Positions 35,197-40,559 of a DNA stretch of 64,000 bases are shown here, one piece after another. Under the pieces are notes generated by a model. That model worked only from the letters and a program-made list of their open reading frames with translations, did not search any database and had not been told where the DNA came from. Position 1 is the first letter of the stretch, and each line of letters opens with the position of its first letter. A program made the translations under genes and the position numbers. The stretch lies in the NCBI RefSeq assembly GCF_010091945.1, contig NZ_WVIE01000002.1, forward strand, positions 177,270-241,269, given 5' to 3'. The stretch is from Myxacorys almedinensis A. GTDB lineage: Bacteria; Cyanobacteriota; Cyanobacteriia; Leptolyngbyales; Leptolyngbyaceae.

Positions 35197-36063
35197 TTAG
35201 AGCAATGGCTGCGTCGAAAGGCATGTCTCTAGATCAAGCTGAGCCAGCTTTTCATAGGCATTGTCGATCTTAGATTGTCCTCTCAAAAAGCCAATGCTTG
35301 CGCCTGGGCAGATGAAACGCAGTGTGTCTGGGGTAAATTGGTCGAGCAGCGATCGCACCTGGCGAATTTGCCGTTTCCAGTGAAACGTTTTTGCCGTTCT
35401 GAGCGCTACAGGCTTGCCTTGGCGATCGGGCAACAGATGCCGCCCAGAAAACAGCACACCGCCGCATGTGCCCAGATACAAACAAGACGAGCCGGGAGAG
35501 TGCCCCGCAGTCCAGATGGCACGAGTATGAGAGTTTAGCGAAAACTCGTGCTGGAAGGAGGTTAGCGATCGCCCTGGCAGCAGGTAAGCTTCTTGTTCTT
35601 GAATCAAAATGTCGCACTTGAAGGCGTCTTGAATCTTGCCGACTTTGCCGATCCCACCCCGATGGGTCAGAAAGAGCGATCGCACTCCGCCTTGGGTCTG
35701 CAAAAACTGCTGATTTGGCTCATCCCACGCCGGACAATCGATCAGAATATTTCCTGCTTTTTCTACAATGAGATAAGCGGTTCCTCCTAGCGTGTCCCGA
35801 TTGGGAGGAAACGCAAAAATAGGGTGAGAGCACGATTCGCCTCGCGAAGTTCCAAAGGATTGCTCGAATTCATCTAAAACAAGACGGGGTTGCTTGGGCA
35901 GTGGAGGGGAAGAGGACACAGCAGGAACAGGTAAAGGATTGCAGAACGGTCTTCTCAAGGAGCCGATCAAGCCTTGATTGTGCCAGATTATTTCCCGTAG
36001 TAGCAGATTGGCTAGCAGATGAAATGGATAAAAGGTGGGTGACAACAGTGCTTCTAGGATCAT
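35197..36063 (-). CDS. MBL-fold protein lacking the metal site
   Basis: The protein of about 288 residues has the metallo-beta-lactamase fold order, including GGTAYLIVEKAGNILIDCPA, a strand-loop SLFLTHRGGIGK, and WTAGHSPGSSCLYLG. The HxHxDH motif is reduced to H134-R-G-G-I-G, the bridging GD is GR (LFSGRHLLPD), and the last PGH is PGA. So only two of the metal-binding residues remain and zinc-dependent hydrolysis is unlikely. I use the ATG at 36063 (MILEALLSPTFYPF). A binding or structural role is inference. Confidence 0.8.
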   Translation of the reverse strand: MILEALLSPTFYPFHLLANLLLREIIWHNQGLIGSLRRPFCNPLPVPAVSSSPPLPKQPRLVLDEFEQSFGTSRGESCSHPIFAFPPNRDTLGGTAYLIVEKAGNILIDCPAWDEPNQQFLQTQGGVRSLFLTHRGGIGKVGKIQDAFKCDILIQEQEAYLLPGRSLTSFQHEFSLNSHTRAIWTAGHSPGSSCLYLGTCGGVLFSGRHLLPDRQGKPVALRTAKTFHWKRQIRQVRSLLDQFTPDTLRFICPGASIGFLRGQSKIDNAYEKLAQLDLETCLSTQPLL

Positions 36064-36290
36064 CGTAGCGAATTGCCTGACGCAGGAGAAGGAGTGGCGA
36101 CGTCTTCGATCTGGTTTGCGATCGCGGCAAAAAAGATTTGTCAATCAAGTAAAATAATTGGTTTTGATCTGCAAACCTTGCAGCGTCAACGGGTAGCCAA
36201 CCTGTTGAATGCTATGGTTTAGGATCTTTGCAGGGGTTGCAACGTTTCTTCAAAGCCTCATGTTGAGCCAATCCATTGCATCATAAGGGC

Positions 36291-37808
36291 ATGATCTGGT
36301 TACTTCTCCTTGGGTTGATTACCTACTTTATTGTGAAACGGGCAAGTGGCGTGACTCGCACCCCCGTTTGGCTACTGTGGCTTGTAGCAATGATGCCTGC
36401 GTTCGTTTTGTCGGGGTGGGCGATCGCGTTTCGGGGTCAACGGGCGCTCCCTCCAACCCTCGTCATTCTATTATTTGTCGGATGCTTGATGGTGTACTTG
36501 CTGCTGATTGAGCGAGGACGAATCGCGCCAAAACCCGCGAAGACACCGCAAAATAACGCTGCCCTCGATCCGGCAAGCCCCCCGCCCCCCAGCATTCCTG
36601 AAGCTATCCCAGAACTTCATGATGAGCAACCGCTGCGACCCATCACCCAAGAAGAAGAAAACCGCTTACAAACGTGTTTTTTGTGGTCGGTGTATTATTT
36701 GCAGCACATTGAGTATCGTCCTCAAGCGGTGATCTGCCGAGGGAAACTCCGGACAACGCCAGAAATTGCTTACCAAACCGTTCGAGATAATATTGAGGTT
36801 CAGTTTCGCGATCGCTTCTACGTAGTGTTTCAAGAAGGTCATCGCACCGATCCGTTTTTTGCTTTAGTTCCCAATCCCTATGCTAAAGAGCAAGACCCCC
36901 TGCTGAGGCAACCTTCGTCTCGCAAAGACAGAAAGCTGGTGCGTCCGGGGGTGGCTTCTGCCTTGGCAGGGATCACGCTGATCACGACGACATTAGCAGG
37001 ACTACAAATGGCGGGTCGAGTCATCTCTAACCCACTGGTTCTGATTGACGGGCTGCCCTATGCCTTGCTTGTCATGACGTTTTTTGCCCTGAGAGGAATC
37101 GGGCATTTCCTGACCACGCGAAAGTATCAGATTGCAGCAACCCTGCCCTATTTTATTCCTGTAATTCCCCTGTCATTTTTTCCGTTGGGCACGGTTGGGG
37201 CGTTTATTCAGATCCGGTCGCCGATTCCCGATCGCAAGGCACTGTTTGACGTTGGGGCGGTGGGCGCAATGCTGGGGCTATGTATCAGCATTCCGCTTTT
37301 AGCCTGGGGGCTGACGCTATCGGAAGTTGTAGGACTCTCGCAGCGCGCCGGAATTTTTGATTTTTATGCCCTAAATCCTCGATTCTCGATCGTGTTTGCG
37401 CTCTTTAGTAAGCTTGTGTTTGGCAGCGACTTTGTCGCGCAGACGGCAATCAAGCCTCATGCGTTTGCGATCGCGGGCTGGATCGGGCTTTTGTTTACCG
37501 CGTTCAATTTGATGCCCGTCGGGCAGCTAGACGGAGGGCGGATGATTCATGCCATGTTTGGGCAGCGTCGAGGAGCGTTGATTGGTCAGATTTCCCGATT
37601 TTTGCTGCTCGCATTCTCAGTGGTGCAGCCTCATCTGTTGGTGTGGGCGATTTTGCTGCTGTTGTTGCCCGCAATGGATGAACCTGCATTAAATGATGTG
37701 ACTGAAATTGATAATTTTCGCGATGGTGTTGGGCTAGCCTTGTTGACGCTGCTGGTGTTGATTATTCTACCTGCACCCAAGTTTTTGATGAGTTGGTTGC
37801 ATATTTAG
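36291..37808 (+). CDS. Site-2 protease-like membrane protein, EGY3-like (degenerate HExxH)
   Basis: This is a polytopic membrane protein of about 506 residues, with several N-terminal helices, a Pro-rich linker, a soluble segment, and then the M50 core. At the zinc site, HExxH reads RGIGH (268-272), so the first His and the catalytic Glu are gone. The downstream FNLMPVGQLDGGRM with D414 is intact. This matches the plant EGY3 pattern of an inactive relative. The frame extends to a TTG at 36276; ATG 36291 is used. The next gene, a DUF815 ATPase, begins 15 nt later, so they are likely one operon. Confidence 0.86.
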   Translation: MIWLLLLGLITYFIVKRASGVTRTPVWLLWLVAMMPAFVLSGWAIAFRGQRALPPTLVILLFVGCLMVYLLLIERGRIAPKPAKTPQNNAALDPASPPPPSIPEAIPELHDEQPLRPITQEEENRLQTCFLWSVYYLQHIEYRPQAVICRGKLRTTPEIAYQTVRDNIEVQFRDRFYVVFQEGHRTDPFFALVPNPYAKEQDPLLRQPSSRKDRKLVRPGVASALAGITLITTTLAGLQMAGRVISNPLVLIDGLPYALLVMTFFALRGIGHFLTTRKYQIAATLPYFIPVIPLSFFPLGTVGAFIQIRSPIPDRKALFDVGAVGAMLGLCISIPLLAWGLTLSEVVGLSQRAGIFDFYALNPRFSIVFALFSKLVFGSDFVAQTAIKPHAFAIAGWIGLLFTAFNLMPVGQLDGGRMIHAMFGQRRGALIGQISRFLLLAFSVVQPHLLVWAILLLLLPAMDEPALNDVTEIDNFRDGVGLALLTLLVLIILPAPKFLMSWLHI

Positions 37809-37823
37809 CTGAGATGATGGGGC

Positions 37824-39107
37824 ATGACTGAAAAAACGGACTTAGCGCCAGATCTTTACACCCGTTGTTTATCACTGTTGGTGTATCGAGAGGTGCTGCA
37901 CGATGAGGTGGGGCAGGCGTTTTTAGCGCTACTGCAAGCGGCGTCAGGGCACGACCTTCACGACCAACTGCAAGCCTATGGCAGGTGGTTTAGCGCGATC
38001 GCACAGACGCATCAAGGCTGGCAAGACTATGTGCTGGAGCGCCTCTTGACAGTGGAAAACAGCATCACTCGCAGCCTTCAGACGATCACCCCCGACGGGT
38101 TACCCCCTGCCCTGGTAGATGCGATCGCCCATGATTTGCAGATTTTGCAACAGATTTATCGCTGCACCTCTCAACAGATGGGTCAATGGATCAGCCCTCC
38201 GATGCCGATTTGGGCGGATCAGTTACCAACCCCTCCTACCACTCCTAGACAAGCGGAAATGTTGCGACTGGGCGCTTATTTAGCGACGCTCCCTGACTGG
38301 GCGACTGCTATTCCAAAATTGGCAGCGTTTTATCAAACCTTTGGAACTGGCATGATTGCACAGTACTTAGCGTTCCGGTGGCAAACGGGTCACTTAGTTG
38401 CGATCGCGCATCCCGATCCGATTCGGGTTGATGCGCTCGTGGGGTATGAAACTCAGCGAGATACCCTGATCAAGAACACAGAATTTTTACTAGCAGGATT
38501 GCCAGCACTGCATATTTTGTTGTATGGCAGCCGTGGATCAGGAAAATCATCATTGGTAAAATCGTTGCTGCGGCTGCATCCTAACCTCCGTCTCATTGAA
38601 GTTGGAAAATCTGAACTGACGGATCTCTCTACGATCGTCGAACAGCTACGGGATCTGCCTCAAAAGTTTATTATTTTTGTTGACGACTTATCATTTGAAG
38701 AAGACAACGACGCCTACAAAGCGCTTAAAGTTGTGCTAGAAGGCAATCTCACCGCTCGCCCTGACAATGTTGTGGTCTACGCCACCTCAAATCGCCGTCA
38801 CCTGATTCGAGAATTTTTTGATGAGCGTCCCCGTCCGAGCGACGCCGATGAAATTCATCATTGGGATACCGTTCAAGAGAAATTGTCGTTTAGCGATCGC
38901 TTCGGCTTGACCCTCACGTTTGAACCCGCCGACCAACAAACCTATCTCACCATCGTTCATCATCTTGCCCAGCAGGCTAACCTTTCCCTTAAAGCAGAAG
39001 AGTTAGAATTTCAAGCGTTGCAGTGGGCAACTCGGCACAACGGGCGCTCTGGAAGAACGGCACGGCAGTTTATTGATTTTCTCAAAGCAGACCTAGCGCT
39101 CTCTTAA
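37824..39107 (+). CDS. DUF815 family ATP-binding protein
   Basis: The 427-residue protein has a helical N-terminal region of about 190 residues, then a P-loop ATPase core. The core has Walker A GSRGSGKSS (235-243), Walker B FIIFVDDLSFEE and a C-terminal AAA-like segment (NRRHLIREFFDERP, SDRFGLTLTF). DUF815 ATPases are widespread and of unknown role. It follows the EGY3-like gene by 15 nt and precedes menI by 4 nt, all on the same strand, so the three are probably one transcript. Whether it works on the membrane protein is unknown. Confidence 0.9.
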   Translation: MTEKTDLAPDLYTRCLSLLVYREVLHDEVGQAFLALLQAASGHDLHDQLQAYGRWFSAIAQTHQGWQDYVLERLLTVENSITRSLQTITPDGLPPALVDAIAHDLQILQQIYRCTSQQMGQWISPPMPIWADQLPTPPTTPRQAEMLRLGAYLATLPDWATAIPKLAAFYQTFGTGMIAQYLAFRWQTGHLVAIAHPDPIRVDALVGYETQRDTLIKNTEFLLAGLPALHILLYGSRGSGKSSLVKSLLRLHPNLRLIEVGKSELTDLSTIVEQLRDLPQKFIIFVDDLSFEEDNDAYKALKVVLEGNLTARPDNVVVYATSNRRHLIREFFDERPRPSDADEIHHWDTVQEKLSFSDRFGLTLTFEPADQQTYLTIVHHLAQQANLSLKAEELEFQALQWATRHNGRSGRTARQFIDFLKADLALS

Positions 39108-39111
39108 CCCA

Positions 39112-39564
39112 ATGCCTTTTACCTACGATCGCACGATCCGATTTCACGAGACCGATGCTGCGGGTGTCGTTTACTTTACCAACGTTCTGGTGATTTGCCA
39201 CGAAGCCTATGAAGCGTCTTTAATCGCGTCTGGAGTCAACGCTGGAACGTTTTTTAGGAGCGGCGATGCGGCGATGCCCATTGTTCATGCCAGTGTCGAG
39301 TTTTTCAAGCCGATGTATTGCGGCGATCGCGTCTCTATCCAACTTCTATCTAAACAAGTCAACGACAGCACTTTTGAGATTTGCTATGAAATTTTGGGCA
39401 ACGCTTCAGACCGGGCACCGCAAACTCTTGAGTCTGATAACACTGCCCGTTTGGTTGGCAAAGCGCTCACACGGCATGTCTGCATCGCTCCTCAAACCCA
39501 AACGCGAACCATGCTTTCATCACAGTTGATCAACTGGTTGCGGCAAACAGGGTCTACTCTCTAG
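39112..39564 (+). CDS. menI: 1,4-Dihydroxy-2-naphthoyl-CoA thioesterase-type hot-dog protein
   Basis: This enzyme releases 1,4-dihydroxy-2-naphthoate from CoA in phylloquinone synthesis. The 150-residue 4-HBT hot-dog protein has the catalytic run FHETDAAGVVYFTNV with Asp at residue 15, and VHASVEFFKPMYCGDRVSIQL. Both length and motif match the cyanobacterial enzyme. It starts 4 nt after the DUF815 stop codon. It could be a more general acyl-CoA thioesterase, but the pattern favours the DHNA type. Confidence 0.88.
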   Translation: MPFTYDRTIRFHETDAAGVVYFTNVLVICHEAYEASLIASGVNAGTFFRSGDAAMPIVHASVEFFKPMYCGDRVSIQLLSKQVNDSTFEICYEILGNASDRAPQTLESDNTARLVGKALTRHVCIAPQTQTRTMLSSQLINWLRQTGSTL

Positions 39565-39611
39565 CCTTGCTGATGAGGGTGATGCATTATCCGCCATTTT
39601 TGATGCCATGA

Positions 39612-40559
39612 CTATTCAGCCAATCGGTGATCCAACAGTTCGCCGTGGGTTGATAGAAATGTGGCGACTTCTTGGCGAGTTGGCAACGATGGTTGTGCCC
39701 CTGCTTTAGTGACGGATAAGGCGGCTACTGCCGAAGCGAAGGTGATGGCTTTTTGCAGCGACAAATTGGCGGTCAATCCTGCGGCTAACCCCCCGTTAAA
39801 GGCATCTCCAGCGGCAACAGTATCAATTGCTTTAACTGGAAAACTAGGAATTGAAAGCGCTCCGTTTTCTGTTGAATATAGCACTCCTAATCTACCTAAT
39901 TTTATAATCACTGTTGCGATGCCGTTTTGATGAATGAGTGTTGCCGCTCGTGCTGCACTTTTATGATCTTCTACTGAAAATCCGGCGAGTTGGCTTGCCT
40001 CCACTTGGTTGGGAGTAATGATATCAATCCATGAATAAAGTTCTGTTGGCAAACTCAACTGGGCTGGAGCCGGATCGAGAATTACCGTTACCCCCGCTTG
40101 CTTTGCTGCTTGTGCTGCGCGGATCACCGCTTCTATCGGAACTTCAAGTTGCAACAGCAAAACCTTGGCGTGTGGCAACACTGCCTGCAATCGTTCGAGA
40201 TCTGCCGCTCCGACTTGCCCATTTGCACCGGGAATCACAATAATGTGATTTTCCCCTGCGTCATCCACTACGATCGCAGCAACTCCAGAATGAATCGATT
40301 GATCCACCCAGACGCGATCGCACGTCACTCGATTTGCCCTCAACTCAGCCAACAAATCTTGTCCAAACCGATCGTTTCCCACTCGCCCGACCAGTTCAGT
40401 CGCGATGCCTAACCGAGCCATAGCGACAGCTTGATTTGCCCCCTTTCCTCCGGGTATCATCTCAAACGATTGCCCTGTCAAGGTTTCGCCAAGAGCAGGC
40501 AGGCGAGGAACCCGGGTGACAAGATCCATATTGATACTGCCAAACACGATCGCACTCAT
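39612..40559 (-). CDS. rbsK: Ribokinase
   Basis: RbsK phosphorylates ribose at C5. The 315-residue PfkB-family protein has GSINMDLVTRVPRLPALGET at the N-terminus, GGKGANQAVAMARLG, and the catalytic AAGDAFNGGLAAGL with the active Asp. Full length. It is divergent from the nucleoside hydrolase gene, so ribose released from nucleosides could be recaptured here. Confidence 0.93.
   Translation of the reverse strand: MSAIVFGSINMDLVTRVPRLPALGETLTGQSFEMIPGGKGANQAVAMARLGIATELVGRVGNDRFGQDLLAELRANRVTCDRVWVDQSIHSGVAAIVVDDAGENHIIVIPGANGQVGAADLERLQAVLPHAKVLLLQLEVPIEAVIRAAQAAKQAGVTVILDPAPAQLSLPTELYSWIDIITPNQVEASQLAGFSVEDHKSAARAATLIHQNGIATVIIKLGRLGVLYSTENGALSIPSFPVKAIDTVAAGDAFNGGLAAGLTANLSLQKAITFASAVAALSVTKAGAQPSLPTRQEVATFLSTHGELLDHRLAE

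Follow-up and report, generated by a model that had tools for sequence, protein, structure and literature searches.

Synechocystis carries an EGY-like pair of site-2 proteases (S2Ps), presumably Slr0643 and Sll0862. Four S2Ps have been reported in this organism, with Slr0643 described as being needed for acid acclimation (PMC4284730), and Sll0862 is placed among thylakoid-membrane proteins with plant homologues (PMC6878006). In S2Ps, two histidines and an aspartate hold one zinc ion (PMC6131628, PMC10978774), and the tetrapeptide GNLR is given as a signature of the plant EGY proteins (PMC6131628). Plant EGY3 figures in the literature as an inactive counterpart of EGY1/2 (PMC9355673, PMC10978774, PMC12389704); one account terms it a pseudoprotease exclusive to plants (PMC9355673), and another reports that it contributes to the stability of other chloroplast proteins (PMC10978774). 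No earlier report of the cyanobacterial pseudoproteases discussed here was found among the titles and abstract openings returned by searches of open-licence papers, which for DUF815 led to work on Acinetobacter.

The 4.96-Mb assembly of Myxacorys almedinensis A encodes four M50 proteins. L001 is the genome's best match to the M50 family and is taken as RseP-like; L002 is an EGY-like M50 protein with HELGH and GNLR; L003 is, we assume, an M50 protein of the CBS-domain type; and the fourth, the focal protein, is encoded within the window, the 64,000-nucleotide stretch of DNA analysed here. EGY-like proteins are divided into two types, A (the focal type) and B (the L002-like paralogues). The focal orthogroup is represented only once in the genome, where the other match is the EGY-like paralogue at 31% identity. 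At E<=1e-60, 41 of the 42 genomes of the family have a single match each, none with an internal stop, and most of the matching genomes drawn from the phylum give two matches each, fitting one protein of either type. GNLR is present in 30 of 32 B-type proteins versus 24 of 262 A-type proteins. A comparison of the published Slr0643 and Sll0862 primers with the A and B types gave no decisive match.

The focal gene, its protein and its neighbours

The focal gene (36291..37808, + strand; ATG start, alternative TTG start at 36276) encodes a predicted pseudoprotease of 505 residues with the M50/site-2-protease fold. Residues 270-433 match the Pfam profile PF02163 (Peptidase_M50) at 45.3 bits, above its cut-off of 27.2. 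A profile built from 97 A-type proteins, that of the window among them, aligns with the S2P of M. jannaschii (MjS2P, 3b4r) at E 7e-5, such that HELGH (54-58) and MDGG (D148) of the latter coincide with RGIGH and LDGG of the focal protein. The original observation of an RGIGH sequence in place of HExxH at residues 268-272 (37092..37106, +) is confirmed both in the open reading frame and in this profile alignment. The third zinc-ligand motif, LDGG (residues 413-416; 37527..37538, +), was likewise rightly called intact, its aspartate being residue 414. The protein thus displays the profile, the core fold, and the LDG aspartate of peptidase M50/site-2 proteases but not HExxH, and from this motif loss zinc-dependent intramembrane proteolysis is predicted to be absent. 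At the position of the EGY signature (residues 151-154; 36741..36752, +), the sequence reads GKLR instead of GNLR. The congener Myxacorys californica, whose protein is 83% identical, carries the same RGIGH, which is therefore no sequencing slip.

With the 97-row alignment, AlphaFold2 returns a model of mean pLDDT 91.6 and pTM 0.83, compared to a pLDDT of 44 from the single sequence. The best structural match of the model is MjS2P (3b4r; Z 10.7, rmsd 5.2, 190 residues), followed by SpoIVFB (8vjm; Z 10.2), both zinc proteases; such Z values alone lie within the chance range for helical proteins, and it is the Pfam profile match that decides the M50 assignment. A Foldseek search gave no match below E 0.001. 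Residues ~114-198 (36630-36884) form a possible ferredoxin-like domain, which aligns with the ferredoxin-like domains of secretion proteins such as XcpY and EpsL at a Z of ~7, a value also attained by chance.

Downstream, a DUF815 AAA-type ATPase gene (37824..39107, +; 314.7 bits versus a cut-off of 23.8) follows after a 15-nt gap and, 4 nt further on, a 4HBT thioesterase gene (39112..39564, +; Pfam 4HBT). The clustering originally reported, with its spacings of 15 and 4 nt, is thus real. The thioesterase had been named menI; its 4HBT membership holds, and its identity as MenI is putative, the sole MenI model matched, that of Staphylococcus, scoring 22.5 bits against a cut-off of 225. On the other side lies a divergent gene of the metallo-beta-lactamase fold (35197..36144, -; Pfam and neighbourhood comparison), which is also present upstream of 69 of the 80 active orthologues with enough flank. 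Scans of 35900-39700 for promoters (4 sites versus 3.5 in shuffled sequence) and terminators (5 versus 4.9) revealed no excess.

Motif loss across the orthogroup

When 386 genomes were drawn evenly across the phylum, 128 gave a match at E<=1e-10, and the A-type protein could be read from 109 of these; HExxH is absent in 13 of the 109, the window protein counted. Additional family and order searches were made around the losses, and the window's order consists of this one family only. Together, 240 distinct A-type proteins besides that of the window were collected, of which 172 have HExxH and the aspartate and 68 do not, a proportion that over-samples the losing lineages. With 172 intact proteins and the same loss in relatives, the absence of the motif is not universal, and it is no slip of a single genome either.

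The number and position of the losses were read from a tree of 174 rows and 490 columns, built by maximum likelihood ("quick" search) with SH-aLRT support values and with the motif columns excluded. Fourteen rows of the window's family with arginine at the first histidine form one clade (support 100), referred to here as the R clade. Its sister clade (support 98) also comprises 14 rows from this family, of which 13 are active; the fourteenth, L109 (HELGR), represents a separate loss, and L019 (HKFSQ) is another. Within the R clade (RELGH, RELGY, REGGH, RAAGH, RGIGH, RSLGS/C, RSxGQ/H/Y), the arginine is constant, and the glutamate and second histidine have been lost piecemeal. At a minimum, the A-type rows require 14 changes between active and lost states, and inclusion of the B-type paralogues raises this to 17; there are 17 pure lost clades (15 A-type and 2 B-type). 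The count is approximate because several deep nodes are weakly supported; by these sequences, the A-type orthogroup lost its active site about 14-15 times.

Other lineages show further variants. One A-type protein (L264:1501-3054) has an intact HELGH but LGGG, such that the aspartate ligand is lost and the histidine pair kept. L323, a 398-residue open frame, has lost all three ligand positions (YEGSY and LPGG) and gained no cation. The B-type paralogue L336, from a 2.4-Mb genome (f18/g27), reads REVGH, the same His-to-Arg change. In the A type of family f17 (L273, L274-L283), genus g194 keeps HELGH and genus g25 has RE[V/I]GQ in 5 of 5 proteins; the B type is intact in both. In family f26 (L198, L200, L234-L263, L334, L338, L346, L347), both EGY-like types are without HExxH; the distinct proteins examined, 16 A-type and 17 B-type, represent part of the f26 matches, and all lack the motif. 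This family looked basal in a preliminary tree and, with both types inactive, was considered as a group of thylakoid-less Gloeobacter relatives. To our knowledge, PsaK is missing in Gloeobacter violaceus; all 10 f26 genomes tested have it, and the idea was rejected.

The DUF815 gene is found in 41 of the 42 genomes of the window's family, yet it stands beside the S2P gene in only part of them. Of the 240 loci, 108 have <900 nt downstream and were excluded from the adjacency count. Among the remainder, all 19 R-clade loci, like that of the window, have DUF815 immediately downstream, compared to 0 of 84 active loci and 0 of 29 other lost loci; the latter come from 7 of the 14 A-type lost clades outside the R clade, and the linkage is absent in those 7. 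Where measured, the gap between the two genes is 9-343 nt. Since the adjacency was seen in none of these loci outside the R clade, gene linkage and loss of the active site fall on one and the same branch, and the ATPase is a candidate partner. The chance of linkage and loss coinciding on one branch is ~4% (~15 losses, 346 branches). The linkage is a single event on one branch, and a partnership between DUF815 and the pseudoprotease is best regarded as a lead.

Replacement residues

Excluding the window protein, 63 of the 68 lost proteins have arginine or lysine in place of the first histidine, the glutamate, or the second histidine, and all 63 keep an aspartate or glutamate in the LDGG motif. 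The aspartate is missing only in L264 and L323, neither of which has such a cation. At the level of clades, 4 of the 17 lost clades lack arginine or lysine at these sites, and 3 of the 4 keep the aspartate.

By parsimony, the first histidine has changed 13 times (Arg 8, Tyr 2, Lys 1, Gly 1, Gln 1), with two of the eight His-to-Arg changes falling in B-type paralogues, and one reversal from arginine to histidine (L260). Four other conserved histidine columns show 60 changes, of which 9 are to arginine, and 7 of those 9 occur in column 417. The excess of arginine at the first histidine (8/13 versus 9/60) has a Fisher p of 0.001, in a post hoc test on parsimony-inferred change counts; relative to a plain mutation model, p is 0.001 (kappa 2) or 0.013 (kappa 4).

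F264, F265, R268, F402, and R417 are present in 14 of 14 R-clade rows versus 0-4 of 117 active rows. A tryptophan at position 397, considered as a "plug" and a mark of inactivation, is shared by all 14 R-clade rows and by 1 of the 117 active A-type rows, but 11 of 11 B-type rows, active ones included, have it as well. Thus, it was rejected as such a mark, and Trp397 probably reflects an old state rather than inactivation.

Interpretation and relation to known systems

The dN/dS between the window gene and that of Myxacorys californica is 0.075. Values within R-clade genera range from 0.06 to 0.14 (medians 0.07-0.095 in four genera), compared to 0.04-0.09 for active pairs in four genera of the same family; the medians in other losing genera are 0.10-0.11 and, in f26/g57, 0.19. 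Such strong selection on a protein that has lost its zinc-binding site suggests a job that does not need cutting. The values within the R clade already disfavour a decaying gene, i.e., a protease that has become dispensable in this lineage and drifts, its frame open only for lack of time. Such decay would fit the piecemeal loss of the glutamate and second histidine, as well as the approximately twofold faster evolution of the R clade than of its active sisters (mean 1.06 versus 0.56 from the common node), a rate that partly relaxed constraint would also give and that, like the higher dN/dS of f26/g57, counts against the reading preferred below. Of the 141 columns with at least 90% conservation among the 117 active rows, 39 are not kept in 80% of the R-clade rows, again as decay would have it, but 102 are, several clade-specific residues occur in 14 of 14 rows, and no R-clade match is reported to contain an internal stop. 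Decay is thus quite improbable, and we read the focal protein as a remodelled, folded, and selected protein and not as a relic. The original description of an EGY-like S2P that lacks the metal-binding HE pair and is retained as a gene is supported.

The protein might still be a hydrolase if its altered site (R..GH with Asp414, or REGGH) bound a metal in another manner and cut some substrates. E269 and H272 persist in some R-clade members (REGGH in 5 proteins, RELGH in 1), and LDGG is retained in every R-clade protein examined. However, the glutamate is gone in the window's own genus, the second histidine is lost in 7 of 8 g153 and 2 of 2 g156 proteins, and arginine is a poor zinc ligand, so this possibility is considered unlikely. 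The motif loss could also be ancestral, the focal protein being an orthologue of EGY3 on one inactive EGY branch common to cyanobacteria and plants and older than plastids, as originally proposed. Both proteins belong to the S2P family and lack HExxH, and the published accounts of EGY3 as inactive fit this scheme. Yet the orthologues mostly keep HExxH (172 of 240), which the proposal itself had named as evidence against it, and the inactive clade falls within a single order, where its nearest relatives are active. The window protein has GKLR, not GNLR, and the losses recur, such that a shared absence of HExxH is weak evidence and a poor marker of common ancestry with EGY3. On these cyanobacterial sequences, orthology to EGY3 was therefore rejected as the explanation of the motif loss, and a pre-plastid branch is given very little credence.

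We lean towards the reading of the focal protein as a catalytically dead but functional S2P-fold protein, a non-cutting scaffold with Arg268 as a staple. It starts from the observed motif loss, the ancestry, the purifying selection, the predicted fold, and the DUF815 linkage and adds to them a presumed absence of activity, an Arg-Asp staple, client binding, and a DUF815 partnership. The ancestor, in the same order, was a zinc protease of the usual kind, carrying both HExxH and LDGG. H268R arose in the ancestor shared by a single clade of the order, with the catalytic glutamate and the second histidine then lost in sub-lineages (RELGH, REGGH, RGIGH, RAAGH, RSxG[Q/S/C/Y]). As no active copy of the orthogroup is left in the genome, the ancestral gene itself was converted. 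Arg268 is hypothesized to replace the zinc ion and to pair with Asp414 through a salt bridge, thereby holding the core helices together. Such a staple would explain both the retention of the aspartate after the loss of the histidines and the frequent replacement by arginine or lysine; against it stand the four lost clades without either residue and the commonness of arginine for histidine at column 417 as well. The fold may still bind transmembrane clients without cutting them, as a membrane scaffold or holdase, and possibly hand them to the ATPase encoded 15 nt downstream. This non-cutting, client-binding function is proposed by analogy with EGY3 and the iRhoms.

A broader scheme is offered only tentatively. 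EGY-type S2Ps may have become metal-free scaffolds repeatedly and independently, each time with a cation, mostly arginine at the first histidine, in place of zinc paired with the aspartate, and in Myxacorys and Phormidesmis the S2P and DUF815 genes may form a two-gene, non-proteolytic membrane-protein module. The bacterial orthogroup offers a natural series in which some fifteen independent inactivations can be set against orthologues that are still active, and RELGH, REGGH, RGIGH, and RSFGQ provide intermediates. It renders non-cutting roles of S2P proteins testable in cyanobacteria and leads to the specific prediction of a zinc-to-arginine replacement.

Among the known systems, MjS2P and SpoIVFB share the core fold with the focal protein, and the ligand positions of MjS2P align with it; the focal protein differs from both in a longer N-terminal part. 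The iRhoms, inactive relatives of rhomboids, also reuse an intramembrane protease fold without cutting (PMC3149277), albeit with an unrelated fold and chemistry. Conserved inactive members are likewise described for the cyanobacterial pseudo-orthocaspases (PMC6426788), which belong to an unrelated cysteine-protease family. The EGY-like pair of Synechocystis, probably the two proteins named at the outset, would fit the two types found here; the focal protein differs in being without HExxH. Plant EGY3 resembles the focal protein as an S2P relative without HExxH; by a comparison of descriptions only, the focal case differs in that the loss does not extend beyond a single clade within one order and that the sole copy of the orthogroup has been converted.
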